Part shown: piece by piece, positions 35,715 to 41,890 of the stretch | Layout of the letters: the number at the start of each line of letters is the position of its first letter | Numbering within the stretch: the stretch's first letter is position 1 | Source: Heliomarina baculiformis | GTDB taxonomy: Bacteria > Pseudomonadota > Alphaproteobacteria > Rhodobacterales > Rhodobacteraceae | Direction: 5' to 3' | NCBI RefSeq assembly: GCF_019966545.1 | Contig: NZ_JAIMIC010000006.1 | Span: 1 to 64,000 of the forward strand | Length of the DNA: 64,000 bases | Translations under genes and position numbers: made by a program | The notes under the pieces: model-generated | Told to the model about the DNA's origin: nothing | Seen by the model: only the letters and a program-made list of their open reading frames with translations | Databases searched by the model: none

Positions 35715-37193
35715 TTAAGGGCACTGGTAGAACTTGGCCCGGTTGCTCCGGCATTCCGCCATGTTGGTGCCCGCTTCCGGCAGCAGCTTCGTGCGGCGCG
35801 GCTCGATACTGCCGTCCGGGAGGGCCGGCTGGCGCGGCGAGGTCCTCGGCGCCGGGTCCTGCACCAGCGGCTCCGGCTTCGGCGGCTTTGGTGTTGTCCT
35901 CGGCGGGGTGTGCCGGACCACCACGGGGGCCGGGCAGTCCACATCCGGGTTTTCCTCGACACGGGCCAGCGCCTCTTTCAGGGCATCTTCGCTGACCCCC
36001 GGATCGCGCGGCACGTCGACACCCGATTGCTCGATAAAGCGATCGATCGCCGCCTTCGATCCGCGCCCGATGATCCCGTCGATTGCCCCGCGATAGCAGC
36101 CCGCGTCACCCAGCAGCCGCTGCAACCGGCGCGCCGCCTCGTCACGGCTCAGGATGGACTGAACAGGCACGATGACCAGCGTCCGAGACTCGCCCTCCTG
36201 TTCGGGCAGGGCTGCGACCTCGCTGCCTTCGTCGGGATCGGTCGCTGGGGTGAAATAGGCATCCGCCTCGCGCAGAGCCTCGCGCTTTTCCAGTGCAAAG
36301 GCATAAAGCGGGTGATCCGCCTGATCCTGATGGCGCACGAGGAAATCGTTCCAGTTTTCAAAGGTGCCGTCCCGGTCGATGCGGACGAAATCCTCGCTGA
36401 TGCCCGGCGTGGCTGGCGCAGCCTGAACCGGTGCGCGATCGCTGTTCGGGTTGATGACAAACTCACCTCCCCCAAGCGAGGCATAGACAAAGGGCGCCGC
36501 ATCGGGAACCGACTTGCGCATCTTGTCCCGCACCCGGCCCAGCAGGCGGCGCACATCGGTCGGCGGCTCCTGCATCGCGGCAAGAAAGGCAGTGGTAAAA
36601 GGAGAATTCTCTCCGGCGACTCCATCCGGGGTGATACCGCCCGCCGCCGCCGCATAGGCGATCAGCGTATCGGACTGCGCCGTCTCGACCCGGCCAAGCC
36701 CGCTCGAGACGCTGCGCCCCCCGGTCGCAGACTGCATCCGCGTGACAAAGGGATTGTTGCGGCAAGCATCCAGCACCACCATCCGAAGCTTGCCCGCGCC
36801 GGAAATCTGGCCGAGCACAAGGTCAAGATCGACCATCTCAAGATCCGCGTCCCGAGCGTCTTCAAGCCGGGCATCCACCGGGATCAGGTAGTTGCGACCG
36901 CCGACCTCGATACCGTGCCCCGCGTAATAGACCAGCGCCATCTCGGCAGCATCCGCGCGCTGGCGAAAATCGCGCAGCGCATCGCGCATCTCGTTCCGGG
37001 TCAGGTCGGTGGCGGCGATCACGTCGAACCCCTGGCGGGCCAGCGCCTGCGCCACATCCCGGGCATCGTTATGAGGATTATCCAGCCGCGCCACCGCGCT
37101 GTACTCGGCATTGCCGATCACCAGCGCCACCTTGGAGGCCGCGGCGGAAAGAGGAACGATCAGAAGGAAAAGAACAATCAGAAAATGTTTCAT
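35715..37193 (-). CDS. Exported caspase-family (C14-like) protein
   Basis: A 492-residue protein with a signal peptide (MKHFLIVLFLLIVPLSAAAS), then a caspase-like domain: KVALVIGNAEYSAVARLDNPHNDA, the catalytic His93 in LVYYAGHGIEV and Cys144 in VVLDACRNNPF. A central linker is followed by a segment like a peptidoglycan-binding fold (EAARRLQRLLGDAGCYRGAIDG, IGRGSKAAIDRF) and a Pro-rich tail ending in a short Cys-containing block. Both dyad residues are intact, so protease activity is plausible; substrate and processing are unknown. It may be periplasmic or envelope-associated. A perfect palindrome lies about 95 bp upstream. Confidence 0.85.
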   Translation of the reverse strand: MKHFLIVLFLLIVPLSAAASKVALVIGNAEYSAVARLDNPHNDARDVAQALARQGFDVIAATDLTRNEMRDALRDFRQRADAAEMALVYYAGHGIEVGGRNYLIPVDARLEDARDADLEMVDLDLVLGQISGAGKLRMVVLDACRNNPFVTRMQSATGGRSVSSGLGRVETAQSDTLIAYAAAAGGITPDGVAGENSPFTTAFLAAMQEPPTDVRRLLGRVRDKMRKSVPDAAPFVYASLGGGEFVINPNSDRAPVQAAPATPGISEDFVRIDRDGTFENWNDFLVRHQDQADHPLYAFALEKREALREADAYFTPATDPDEGSEVAALPEQEGESRTLVIVPVQSILSRDEAARRLQRLLGDAGCYRGAIDGIIGRGSKAAIDRFIEQSGVDVPRDPGVSEDALKEALARVEENPDVDCPAPVVVRHTPPRTTPKPPKPEPLVQDPAPRTSPRQPALPDGSIEPRRTKLLPEAGTNMAECRSNRAKFYQCP

Positions 37194-37659
37194 GGCTCTC
37201 ATGAACCGGAAAGCGGTCCAAGCCTCTCGTGGGTTGGGAAGGGTCTGAATTGTACCCCGATTACATCATGAGTGGTCGCAACTGTCTGTGACCCGGGTCA
37301 CCCAGTCAAATTGCGGGTTTGCGGTGAGCTTTTTTGGGGAAGCTCCGGCGAACGGATGATGGGCGCAAACCGGTTCCCAGTTAAGCGACCGTTCGAGCGC
37401 GGCAGTTTCAGGAGGAGCGACGAAACCTGTACTATGGCAGCCAAAACCCTGGCCAGCCCCTGCCAGAAGCAACGCAGGCTGTTTGCATCTCCGGCGGCTA
37501 AACCAGCCAAATCCGCTTCGCCGCACACTCCGGAGCTTTCTCAGATCTTTCAAGGCTTCACTGATCCCGCCCCAAAAATTCGGGAAAATCACAGTGAAGA
37601 TCAGATATTGCCCTGCGGCGAATGCCGCCGTCGGGAACGCTCGGCCATAACGGCAAGTA
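37194..37659. other. Gene-poor 466-bp gap between caspase gene and fmt
   Basis: No open frame here looks like a real gene on either strand; the longest ones run on as antisense of fmt and are of odd composition. Seen in it: a perfect 14-bp palindrome at 37288-37301, a small AGCTT/AAGCT hairpin near 37328-37345, and a moderate-GC segment up to 37620. It may hold promoters, a decayed gene or an unannotated RNA; I cannot decide. Confidence 0.5.
37288..37301. promoter_or_regulatory. Perfect 14-bp palindrome upstream of caspase gene
   Basis: GTGACCCGGGTCAC is exactly self-complementary and lies about 95-108 bp upstream of the caspase-like gene's start. It looks like a dimeric-regulator site; no regulator is identified. 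Confidence 0.4.
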
Positions 37660-38586
37660 TCAGCTCTCGCCCAACTGGCTCCCCACCGGAACTGGACGAC
37701 CGCGCAGAAACGTCTCTTCGTCCTGTGCGCCTTTGCCCGCGCGTTGCAGGCGTTTCAGGTGTAGAAGTCCCGTGCCGCAAGCGACGGTAAGACCCGGCCC
37801 GACGACCTCACCGGTCCCCGCACCTGTGGTAGGTTCCTGCGACAAGACTTCGGAGTCGAGCAGCTTGACCCGTTCGCCATCGATCAGGCACCAGGCCCCG
37901 GGGAAGGGTGAAAGACCACGGATCTGCCGGTCGATTGCGACCGCATCGCCACTCCAGTCGACCCGCGCCTCGGCCTTGTCGATCTTGGCCGCATAGGTCA
38001 CGCCGTCTTCCGGCTGCGGCACGGGCGTCAGACTGTCGATATCATCCAGCGCGCGCAGTATCAGACTGGCCCCCATCGCGCTGAGGCGGTCATGCAGCGT
38101 GGCGGTGGTATCCTTGGCGGTGATTTCCGTCGCCTCGCGGAGCAGCACCGGACCGGTATCCAGCCCCGCTTCCATCTGCATGATGCAAACTCCGGTTTCG
38201 GCGTCGCCCGCCATGATCGCCCGATGGATCGGCGCGGCCCCGCGCCAGCGCGGCAAGAGCGAGGCGTGAATGTTGAGACAGCCGCGGCGGGGCGCGTCCA
38301 GCACCGCCTGCGGCAGGATCAAACCATAGGCGACGACAACGGCAATCTCGGCATCGAGCGCGGCAAGCGAGTCCTGTTCGTCAGCTGACTTCAGCAAAAC
38401 CGGATGGCGTACTGTCAGCCCCAGTTCCTCGGCGCGCTGCTGCACCGGGGAGGGCCGGTCTTTTTTGCCGCGACCGGCGGGCCTCGGAGGCTGGCAATAG
38501 ACGGCGGCGACGTCGTGGCCGGCCTCAACCAGCGCATCGAGCACCGGGACCGAGAAATCGGGTGTACCCATGAATATCAACCGCAT
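37660..38586 (-). CDS. fmt: Methionyl-tRNA formyltransferase
   Basis: Formylates initiator Met-tRNA. The 308-residue protein has [19 protein letters not shown], the signature [21 protein letters not shown] with Asn/His active residues, [17 protein letters not shown], and the C-terminal OB-like domain with [23 protein letters not shown]. It is the last gene of the def-def-def-fmt row, linking formylation at start with deformylation after synthesis. A dispersed repeat lies in the 141-bp gap before it. Confidence 0.96.
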
Positions 38587-38727: not shown

Positions 38728-39222
38728 TCAGCCGAGCTTGCGCGCTTTGCGCAAGAGCATGTCGCATTTGACCTTGCTGAGATTGTCGAAATACATCCGG
38801 CCCTGCAGATGGTCGATCTGGTGCTGGACGCTGGTGGCGTCGAGCGCGACGAAATCCCGTTCAGTCGTGGCGCCGGTTTCGTCCATGTAGCGGACCGTCA
38901 CCGCACGGGGACGTATTATCTTGGCCGAAACCCCGGGCAGGTTGGGGCTTGCCTCTTCGTGTTCGCGCAGCTCGACGGAGCGGTGCAGGATCTCGGGGTT
39001 GGCAAGGCGGATCGCGCGACCGCGTTCGCGAGAGGTATCCACCACCGCGAGTTGCAGCATCACGCCGATCTGCGGCGCGGCAAGGCCGACGCCGGGCATC
39101 GCCTCCATCGTGTCGATCATGTCCTGCCAGATCGCGCGGATCTCATCGGTGATGGCTTCGACCGGTTCTGCGGCGGTGCGCAGGCGCTTGTCTGGCCAGG
39201 GCAGGCAGCGGCGGGCGGTCAT
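38728..39222 (-). CDS. Divergent peptide deformylase paralogue, catalytic residues replaced
   Basis: A 164-residue deformylase-family protein. Motif 1 is intact (PGVGLAAPQIG), but in motif 2 the zinc-binding cysteine is a serine (Ser92 in EEASPNLPG where active copies have EGCLSIPG) and in motif 3 the catalytic glutamate is a glutamine (QHQIDH, Gln135). Both metal histidines (134, 138) remain. It is therefore probably inactive as a deformylase, though it may bind nascent chains or ribosomes (inference). It overlaps the middle def gene by 4 bp. The reading frame is otherwise sound and not decaying. Confidence 0.85.
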   Translation of the reverse strand: MTARRCLPWPDKRLRTAAEPVEAITDEIRAIWQDMIDTMEAMPGVGLAAPQIGVMLQLAVVDTSRERGRAIRLANPEILHRSVELREHEEASPNLPGVSAKIIRPRAVTVRYMDETGATTERDFVALDATSVQHQIDHLQGRMYFDNLSKVKCDMLLRKARKLG

Positions 39223-39719
39223 GCGCGGGACTTTTCGTAAGCCGCGCGGGCGAGATCGGCTTCGCTGTATGGCAGGCGGTCGAAGGTGACCGTTCCGTTC
39301 AGGTGGTCAAGTTCATGCTGCACGCAGGCGGCGGCAAAGCCCTGGAACCTCTGCTGCCGTGCGGCGCCGTCCGGATCGGTCCAGGCCAGTTCCACCCATT
39401 CGGGGCGGGAAACCTCGACGAGGATGCCGGGGATCGAGAGGCAGCCCTCCTGCCCGCTGGAGAGCGTCTCGGAGTGATCGGTGATTTCGGGGTTGATAAA
39501 AGCCATCGGCGTGGGCTTGTCTTCCTTCCACGTTGTATCGGTCACGAAAAGCCGTTTCGTCACGCCGATCTGCGGCGCGGCGAGGCCGCGGCCCGGAGCG
39601 GCATACATCGTCTCGAACATATCCGCGATCAGATCGGAGAGGTCCTCATCCGCGCCGACCGGGGTGCAGGTTTCCGACAGGACAGGGTCGGGCCAGAGGC
39701 GGATCTCACGCACGCCCAT
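39219..39719 (-). CDS. def: Peptide deformylase, second copy
   Basis: Removes the formyl group from nascent proteins. The 166-residue protein has all three motifs: GRGLAAPQIG, QEGCLSIPG (Cys93) and QHELDH (His135, Glu136, His139), so it should be active. It is clearly different from the third copy upstream and may prefer other substrates. It shares one base with the upstream copy's stop (TGATG) and overlaps the divergent copy downstream by 4 bp. Confidence 0.93.
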   Translation of the reverse strand: MGVREIRLWPDPVLSETCTPVGADEDLSDLIADMFETMYAAPGRGLAAPQIGVTKRLFVTDTTWKEDKPTPMAFINPEITDHSETLSSGQEGCLSIPGILVEVSRPEWVELAWTDPDGAARQQRFQGFAAACVQHELDHLNGTVTFDRLPYSEADLARAAYEKSRA

Positions 39720-40237
39720 CAGCCCCGAGCCTTTTCGCGCTTCAGCTTGACCATCTTGCGGGTGATCATCTGGCGTTTCATCGGTTTCAGGTAGTCGATG
39801 AACAGCTTGCCGTTCAAATGGTCGATCTCATGCTGGACGCAGGTGGCCCAGAGACCGTCGAACCCGGCCTTCTGCAGCTTGCCGTCGCGATCCAGCCAAC
39901 TCACCTCGACCTCGGCGGGGCGGGTCACCTCGGCATACTGCTCGGGAATAGACAGGCAGCCTTCCTCGTAAACCGAGGTTTCCTCGGAAGAGGCAGTCAC
40001 CTCGGGGTTGAACATCACCATCGGGCGCGGCGCTTCACCCTCTTCCTTGACGCAGTCCAGCACGATCAGGCGCGAAAGCACGCCGATCTGCGGCGCGGCC
40101 AGCCCGATACCCGGCGCGTCATACATGGTTTCCAGCATGTCATCCGCCAGCTTGCGCAACTCGTCTGACATATCTTCGACGGGGGCGCAGACCTTTTTCA
40201 GGCGGGGATCGGGATGGATCAGGATATCTCGCTTCAT
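39719..40237 (-). CDS. def: Peptide deformylase, main copy
   Basis: The most typical of the three deformylases, 172 residues. It has PGIGLAAPQIG, EEGCLSIPEQYAEV (Cys94) and QHEIDHLNGKLFIDYL (His136, Glu137, His140), and a Lys/Arg-rich C-terminal helix of the sort that docks to the ribosome exit. First gene of the row def, def, def-like, fmt; the divergent patB/malY gene begins 94 bp away. Confidence 0.97.
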   Translation of the reverse strand: MKRDILIHPDPRLKKVCAPVEDMSDELRKLADDMLETMYDAPGIGLAAPQIGVLSRLIVLDCVKEEGEAPRPMVMFNPEVTASSEETSVYEEGCLSIPEQYAEVTRPAEVEVSWLDRDGKLQKAGFDGLWATCVQHEIDHLNGKLFIDYLKPMKRQMITRKMVKLKREKARG

Positions 40238-41539: not shown

Positions 41540-41890
41540 CTATTCCCCCGGCAGATACGCCACCGGGGTCTTGGGGTCGCGGTAGAAATCCAGCGGCGCG
41601 GTATCATGCGCCAGTGTCGAGCGTTTGAACTCGTAGCGCATTTCGCCCAGATCTGCCTCGGAGGCCACAATCAGGCACTGATAGAGATGCTCGGCCCCGT
41701 CATAAAGGTCGACCAGCCCGCGCAGCGGCGGCACCGTCGCCTCTTCGACCGAAAATCCGTCGCGCCAGAGATGCAGCACGGGGTAGATCTTTTCCCCCAC
41801 GTGCACCCTCAGACGCGATTTGCGGCGCATCCCGGCAAGGCGCGCGGCATTCATTTCGTCCTGAATGGTTTTTGGCACAAAGTTTTCCAT
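41540..41890 (-). CDS. Hypothetical protein
   Basis: A 116-residue soluble protein that I do not recognise. It has no signal or membrane segment. The N-terminal third is basic (AARLAGMRRKSRLRVHVGEK) and the middle reads as a small beta-rich domain (YPVLHLWRDGFSVEEATVPPLRGLVDLYDG ...; YQCLIVASEAD). The RRxxR and short beta-strand pattern faintly recalls PilZ-like domains, but the hallmark is not clear and I do not assign it. It converges with patB, 18 bp apart. Confidence 0.6.
   Translation of the reverse strand: MENFVPKTIQDEMNAARLAGMRRKSRLRVHVGEKIYPVLHLWRDGFSVEEATVPPLRGLVDLYDGAEHLYQCLIVASEADLGEMRYEFKRSTLAHDTAPLDFYRDPKTPVAYLPGE

Follow-up and report, generated by a model that had tools for sequence, protein, structure and literature searches.

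The window, by which we mean the whole 64,000-nucleotide stretch of DNA analysed here, carries on its minus strand (40237-38728) three overlapping peptide deformylase (PDF) genes, all upstream of fmt. The first, def1 (39719-40237, minus strand), encodes a canonical PDF of 172 amino acids with the motifs GIGLAAPQ, EGCLS and QHEIDH and a basic C-terminal helix. The second, def2 (39219-39719, minus strand), shares 1 bp (39719) with def1 and encodes a fast-evolving protein of 166 amino acids in which the catalytic motifs are complete and the basic C-terminal tail is absent. The third, def3 (38728-39222, minus strand), encodes 164 amino acids and is predicted to be a catalytically dead PDF paralogue, or pseudo-deformylase. 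The stop of def2 and the start of def3 lie in a 4-bp ATGA overlap (39219-39222, minus strand), and the same −4 overlap is found in 53 of the 62 def2-def3 pairs among the family loci. The next gene, on the same strand as def3, is fmt (37660-38586, minus strand), which encodes methionyl-tRNA formyltransferase. Against PF01327, for which the Pfam cut-off is 22.8 bits, Def1, Def2 and Def3 score 183.7, 168.7 and 136.2 bits, and no other match to this profile was detected in the 5.33-Mb genome. Def3 also lies above the cut-off of TIGR00079, "peptide deformylase". The open reading frames and the PF01327 scores bear out the preliminary description of the locus as three tandem deformylase genes beside fmt, and the intact def3 frame with a 4-bp overlap that it reported was likewise recovered, with 39219-39222 shared with def2. 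Elsewhere in the neighborhood, the gene after fmt (35715-37202, minus strand) codes for a caspase-like protein (Peptidase_C14), one stretch of which is peptidoglycan-binding-like, and a 116-amino-acid open frame between aminotransferase and GST-like genes (41540-41890, minus strand) has no Pfam match at E 0.001.

The family, which the named relatives show to be Rhodobacteraceae, was sampled with one genome per genus, and a PF01327 match was present in 145 of the 149 genomes and absent from four. The 139 loci compared are that of the window and those around the best match in 138 of the remaining 144 matching genomes (G026, G028, G033, G066, G134 and G135 were left out); they were fetched around the best PDF match only, so the counts refer to this site and not to other sites in the genome. 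The gene order is def1-def2-def3 in 62 loci, def1-def3 in 54, def1 alone in 20 and def1-def2 in three, one of which (L070) has a def3 fragment at the contig end. Altogether, def3 is present in 117 of the 139 loci. In L102 the Ser is present and the contig ends before motif III, which makes the Glu site unreadable; with L102 and L070, both running off contig ends, excluded, 115 def3 copies are readable. The length of Def3 is 162-171 amino acids in 114 of 116 copies. Wherever def3 occurs in the fetched loci it is downstream of def1, often overlapping the preceding gene, and in a second set made up of the window and 80 named loci fmt directly follows def3 in 80 of 81 cases, four PDF frames being present in one of the 81. 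The clustered PDF genes described in Rhodobacterales represent the same gene cluster as that of the window; in the accessible part of that survey, PDF genes are clustered in 98.1% of the reference species and three are grouped in 62.5% (PMC12690207). At least two clustered PDF genes were found in 119 of our 139 loci, which is under the published 98.1% for a sample that holds one genome per genus, some of them incomplete.

The family can do without Def3 in places, because 22 of the 139 loci are without def3. No def3 remnant was found in these 22 loci, where tblastn with 16 def3 queries (E ≤1e-3) matched only def1 and def2. The genome-wide PDF counts of the def3-less genomes agree with this result, with one match in 20 genomes and two in the two that carry def2. 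The start of fmt lies no more than 150 bp past the last PDF gene in 18 of the 22 loci and at 365, 376 and 953 bp in three others; none was found in the remaining one. On the def1 tree, the presence and absence of def3 call for 17 changes, of which supported branches force only two, too few to put a number on the losses. The presence of def2 is associated with that of def3 (63 of 117 def3-carrying loci versus 2 of 22 without def3; Fisher p 1e-4, with kinship ignored).

The motifs of the first two proteins are intact, as the preliminary description had stated: Def1 and Def2 of the window both have EGCLS and HE[IL]DH, and the Cys and Glu are present in Def1 at 139 of 139 loci and in Def2 at 64 of 65. 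The sole exception among the Def2 proteins, at L060, is separately altered; in this gene (the second PDF gene, plus strand, at about 1921) and in L233, which appear to come from the same or a near-identical genome, the Def2 motifs are lost (EENALS, QQVMDH) with the frame intact.

Def3 is different. The description had given it a Ser in place of the zinc Cys and a Gln in place of the catalytic Glu, and this is what the sequence E-A-S-P-N with QHQIDH contains. Compared with the canonical motifs, the changes are Cys to Ser, Leu to Pro, Ser to Asn and Glu to Gln, with both zinc His residues retained; the Pro at the motif II Leu position and the Asn at the motif II Ser position go beyond what had been noted earlier. 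Glu133 of the E. coli enzyme is the catalytic base. The backbone of Leu91 has a role in PDF catalysis, which we do not count as evidence on Def3. Alignment across the family, by which the conservation of Ser and Gln among relatives was checked, confirmed both: the combination of Ser, Pro and Gln with both zinc His is present in 115 of the 115 def3 copies readable at both sites. Since Ser and Gln are common to all readable copies across the family, the substitutions are not due to chance. The residues concerned are Ser92-Pro93, which replace the metal ligand Cys and the next Leu (38944-38949, minus strand); His134-Gln135, the retained first zinc His and the substitute for the catalytic Glu (38818-38823, minus strand); and His138, the retained second zinc His (38809-38811, minus strand), each of them found in 115/115.

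Motif I (G-phi-G-phi-A-A-X-Q) is preserved in Def3. It reads GVGLAAPQ in the window, in some relatives one of the two Ala is replaced by Gly (e.g., GVGLGAPQ), and the two Gly and the Gln, which is Gln51 of Def3 (39070-39072, minus strand; E. coli Gln50), are found in 115/115. In place of the EGCXS of motif II, Def3 has E-[AG]-S-P-[NCH], and in place of the HEXDH of motif III it has HQ[IVL]DH, the latter in 115/115. Gly44, Gly46, Gln51, Glu90, Arg104, His134, Asp137, His138 and Gly141 are each present in 115/115 copies, and there are residues that are Def3's own and differ in Def1, namely Trp32 (115/115), Ser131 (115/115) and Met42 (114/115). A cleft no longer in use should drift, yet these residues are kept, and the Def3 cleft therefore probably still functions in some way.

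The Cys and the two His of PDF serve as metal ligands, and the C-terminal helix takes part in ribosome binding, according to the accessible parts of PMC5591237 and PMC12690207. With the metal ligand and the catalytic base lost, ordinary deformylation by Def3 would be very unlikely, and in our judgement Def3 very probably lacks physiological deformylase activity. It has been suggested for type 3 PDFs that they act under stress, and Def3 might similarly have low or conditional deformylase activity, with another metal or with the Ser as a ligand. Both His, the motif I Gln and the two motif I Gly are indeed invariant in Def3; moreover, T. brucei type 3 PDFs with altered motifs are reported to be active, which counts against a dead Def3, and activity under oxidative stress has been proposed (PMC12690207, in part). 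However, all 115 copies are altered at the metal ligand, at the residue that follows it and at the catalytic base, and a motif-intact Def1 is already present at 139 of 139 loci, so we consider a conditional deformylase distinctly unlikely.

Across genera, the mean pairwise identity is 0.675 for def1 (n=139), 0.663 for def3 (n=115) and 0.496 for def2 (n=65). Median dN/dS (Nei-Gojobori, pairs with dS 0.1-1.2) was calculated for the window and the best 80 of at least 575 confirmed loci, a set which leans to near relatives; def1 stands at 0.172, fmt at 0.186, def3 at 0.194 and def2 at 0.437. Ser-Pro and QHQ[IV]DH are found in 81 of 81 def3 copies of this set, and the motif set is incomplete in one def1 (L187, whose frames are broken in the record) and in 2 of 42 def2 copies (L187 and L233). 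It is Def2, not Def3, that is the fast-evolving copy, and the substitution rates indicate that purifying selection holds Def3 about as tightly as Def1 and fmt.

The codon at position 92 was also analyzed. Among 114 copies, Ser92 is encoded by AGY in 82 and by TCN in 32, and the codon class switches 25 times on the tree. This tree is weak, with 8 of 111 inner branches well supported, so only the five switches that are forced by well-supported branches carry weight. The 25 switches at Ser92 are hardly fewer than with shuffled labels, for which the mean was 28 and 47 of 500 shuffles were as low; the comparison site Ser131 also gave 25 codon-class switches. A change between AGY and TCN needs two substitutions, so Ser itself has apparently been kept at position 92. 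Ser92 thus seems to be under selection as Ser, and the alternative of repeated Cys-to-Ser replacement equally implies selection for Ser. A new chemistry could be imagined on this basis, with Ser92 and His134/His138 forming a metal-free hydrolase or transferase that acts on nascent N-termini. Ser92 and both His are found in 115/115 and the Ser is retained in both codon classes, but such invariance fits a structural or binding role equally well and the motif I loop is of low confidence in the structural model, which leaves this proposal very unlikely.

Random decay of def3 among relatives, which the preliminary description had named as the observation that would speak against a kept but changed enzyme, was not seen in the 139 loci. 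The description holds in this respect, given the invariant Ser and Gln (115 copies), the lack of any remnant in the 22 loci and a dN/dS near that of fmt. We therefore rejected the idea that Def3 is a product of decay, and a decaying duplicate without function is hardly credible: catalytic residues are lost and def3 is missing from 22 of the 139 loci, but the frames are intact and the substitutions do not vary from copy to copy.

The position of def3 behind def1 at every fetched def3 locus, the similar constraint on the two proteins and Def3's own invariant residues, such as Trp32 and Ser131, would also suit a pseudoenzyme partner that binds Def1 directly and activates or stabilizes it rather than acting on the ribosome. 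PDFs act as monomers, however, and the 22 loci with def1 and no def3 indicate that Def1 does not always depend on Def3. We consider such a partner unlikely. Actinonin and similar inhibitors bind to the active-site metal of PDF, for which Def3 has lost a ligand, and family-wide constraint matches sporadic exposure to inhibitors poorly. Both points argue against a decoy role, in which Def3 would take natural PDF inhibitors out of circulation, and although such inhibitors and accessory PDFs of reduced susceptibility exist (PMC12690207, in part), this explanation is highly improbable.

The C-terminal helix of Def3 is basic (residues 150-163 in the model; 38734-38775, minus strand). In E. coli Def, the C-terminal helix contacts uL22 through L149, K150, R153 and K157 (PMC12690207, in part). 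Where Def3 aligns with E. coli K150, K157 and K160, all 115 copies have Lys or Arg, and the position of E. coli 153 is Met in 106 of 115 Def3 and likewise in 107 of 139 Def1. The mean net charge of the C terminus is +8.0 in Def1 (at least +3 in 139 of 139), +6.5 in Def3 (at least +3 in 112 of 112 parsed copies, four being unparsed) and −0.8 in Def2 (at least +3 in 2 of 52 parsed copies, 13 being unparsed). Def3 thus has the C-terminal helix with ribosome-contact charges that characterizes type 1B PDFs. We judge it fairly probable that Def3 docks on the ribosome, a basic helix alone being no proof of this. Phage PDFs that lack the C-terminal region are active in vivo (PMC5591237, in part); Def2 may therefore well be an active, untethered enzyme. 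To judge from their sequences, Def2, with the motifs and no charged tail, and Def3, with the tail and no motifs, look like complementary halves.

The AlphaFold2 model of Def3 (37 sequences) has a mean pLDDT of 83.4 and a pTM of 0.81, with a helix at residues 150-163 and a pLDDT below 50 at residues 46-50, the motif I loop. The matches listed by Foldseek and VIA-align (50 each) are peptide deformylases only, the best structural match being 5j46 (E 3.6e-14, Z 20.1, rmsd 2.5 over 160). As these listed matches are PDFs, the fold of Def3 is, on the model, the ordinary PDF fold, which says nothing of its function.

The distribution of def3 was examined with motif III patterns, which cover QHQ-x-DH forms only and which other dead PDFs would escape. 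In a sample of 385 genomes of the class, all 5 family genomes had the pattern, as did 5 of 380 others; these latter five were rejected as def3 carriers, as the frames are not PDFs and reach at most 8.1 bits to the PDF profile, versus at least 226 bits in all five family matches. A stricter pattern applied to 398 genomes of the phylum, a sample overlapping with that of the class, matched all 27 family genomes and none of the 371 others. The named scan confirmed at least 575 def3 loci, and the titles of the best 80 of these are Rhodobacteraceae, Paracoccaceae or unclassified Alphaproteobacteria with one exception. A record titled Nocardioides marinus (L196) contains a Rhodobacteraceae def3 with 79% identity to that of the window, probably through contamination or mislabelling. 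The nearest def3 among the matches listed is that of Phaeobacter sp. 22II1-1F12B (94% identity). Mobile copies of def3 were considered and rejected, as 991 of 992 plasmid records and all 154 phage records stayed below 60%; the lone plasmid record above this level, at 72.5%, is a 1.58-Mb replicon of Pseudorhodobacter turbinis.

Another altered PDF is represented by NF009484 (PRK12846.1-5), which is annotated as peptide deformylase and whose cut-off was passed in 7 of 240 genomes of the class. This cut-off, 190 bits, is not reached by the Def3 of the window (131.7 bits). Like Def3, the NF009484 proteins have Ser for the motif II Cys and a C-terminal tail that is basic (net charge +5 to +8). Unlike Def3, they have His for the motif I Gln and Gln for the second His (these and the Ser in 7/7 members), they retain the Glu, and no fmt was detected within about 1.5 kb in any of the 7 loci. 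In a careful tree, from which the motif columns and long branches had been removed, Def3 forms one clade (100/100) and NF009484 a separate clade (100/100) that groups with the main PDFs at 92/84, a placement which the bootstrap does not fully settle. A tree holding Def3 and NF009484 together beat the free quick tree (p-AU 0.944), and in the same quick-tree comparison def3 and def2 came together at a support of 50. If Def3 and NF009484 are separate, dead-looking PDFs with retained tails arose at least twice, and two separate origins would suggest that the tail serves a purpose even where catalysis is lost. NF009484, a curated equivalog (L291-L297 here), is probably misnamed as to function, judging from its motifs. 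A PDF from another alphaproteobacterium (L277, plus strand, at about base 523) has Ser for the Cys, Tyr for the second His and Met for the motif I Gln; where it branches in the tree is uncertain.

Among the known PDF types, Def3 shares with type 1B (E. coli Def; Def1) the fold, motif I, the zinc His, the basic C-terminal helix and the site upstream of fmt, but not the metal Cys, the motif II Leu or the catalytic Glu. A PDF belongs to type 3 if at least one crucial motif residue is replaced (PMC5591237, in part), and Def3 is of type 3 by this definition. Type 3 comprises weakly active or inactive proteins, among them those of Archaea and trypanosomatids and the accessory PDFs of S. aureus and S. 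pneumoniae, which are described as inactive (PMC12690207, in part). However, Def3 differs from these in being family-specific in the samples taken and clustered with a motif-intact PDF, and it keeps a narrow length and a basic C-terminal helix, whereas the C-termini of type 3 PDFs have no conservation in length (PMC5591237, in part). The rationale of PDF clustering in Rhodobacterales has been called elusive, and the accessible part of the survey does not identify an invariant dead member or its retained helix (PMC12690207). Among the open-access PMC papers listed, we found no description of Def3 as the third member of the cluster and none linking it to a phenotype. The main text of the R. sphaeroides essential-gene study, as far as accessible, makes no mention of deformylase (PMC5513736), and the deformylase passage of PMC3024229 concerns B. 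subtilis only. The PDF cluster and inactive-looking PDFs are already known; what sets Def3 apart is its lineage-wide, operonic, tail-retaining form.

The retained helix and cleft, the operon shared with Def1 and the constraint lead us to read Def3 as a ribosome-docked, non-hydrolyzing protein. It would be a pseudo-deformylase that retains the PDF fold, most cleft residues and a basic helix like that used for ribosome docking, and that has lost catalysis through the missing metal ligand (Cys to Ser) and catalytic base (Glu to Gln), with a Pro beside the ligand position. Def3 would be co-produced with Def1 from one operon by coupled translation and would occupy the same ribosomal site as E. coli PDF, beside the exit tunnel. 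There it would contact formyl-Met nascent N-termini without hydrolyzing them, and would adjust the timing of deformylation by Def1 and its choice of chains, or else protect the N-terminus or pass it on. We infer both the substrate binding and the translational coupling from the sequence. A nascent-chain or regulatory role of Def3 fits with the retained docking-like helix. As a whole, the best explanation we can offer is a PDF docked on the ribosome that does not hydrolyze but modulates Def1 or keeps hold of formyl-Met N-termini, and we give it about an even chance; that Def3 modulates Def1 is, taken singly, a hypothesis to which we give somewhat less than an even chance. Still more tentatively, Def3 might be the first of a class of pseudo-deformylases spread across the lineage and docked on the ribosome, where they would read or hold the formyl-Met N-terminus of nascent chains and control Def1; in three-gene species, Def2 and Def3 would then have divided the two halves of the ancestral enzyme between them.

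PDF gene counts and annotations include probably dead copies, as Def3 passes TIGR00079. If our reading is true, Def3 would represent a regulatory layer of bacterial N-terminal processing, of which we found no earlier description. The question of why the PDF genes are clustered is also recast, because the most constant partner of Def1 is probably non-deformylating, looks capable of docking and is constrained like fmt. Deformylation has often been regarded as constitutive, and Def3 offers a concrete way to test whether this major group of marine bacteria tunes it at the exit tunnel.
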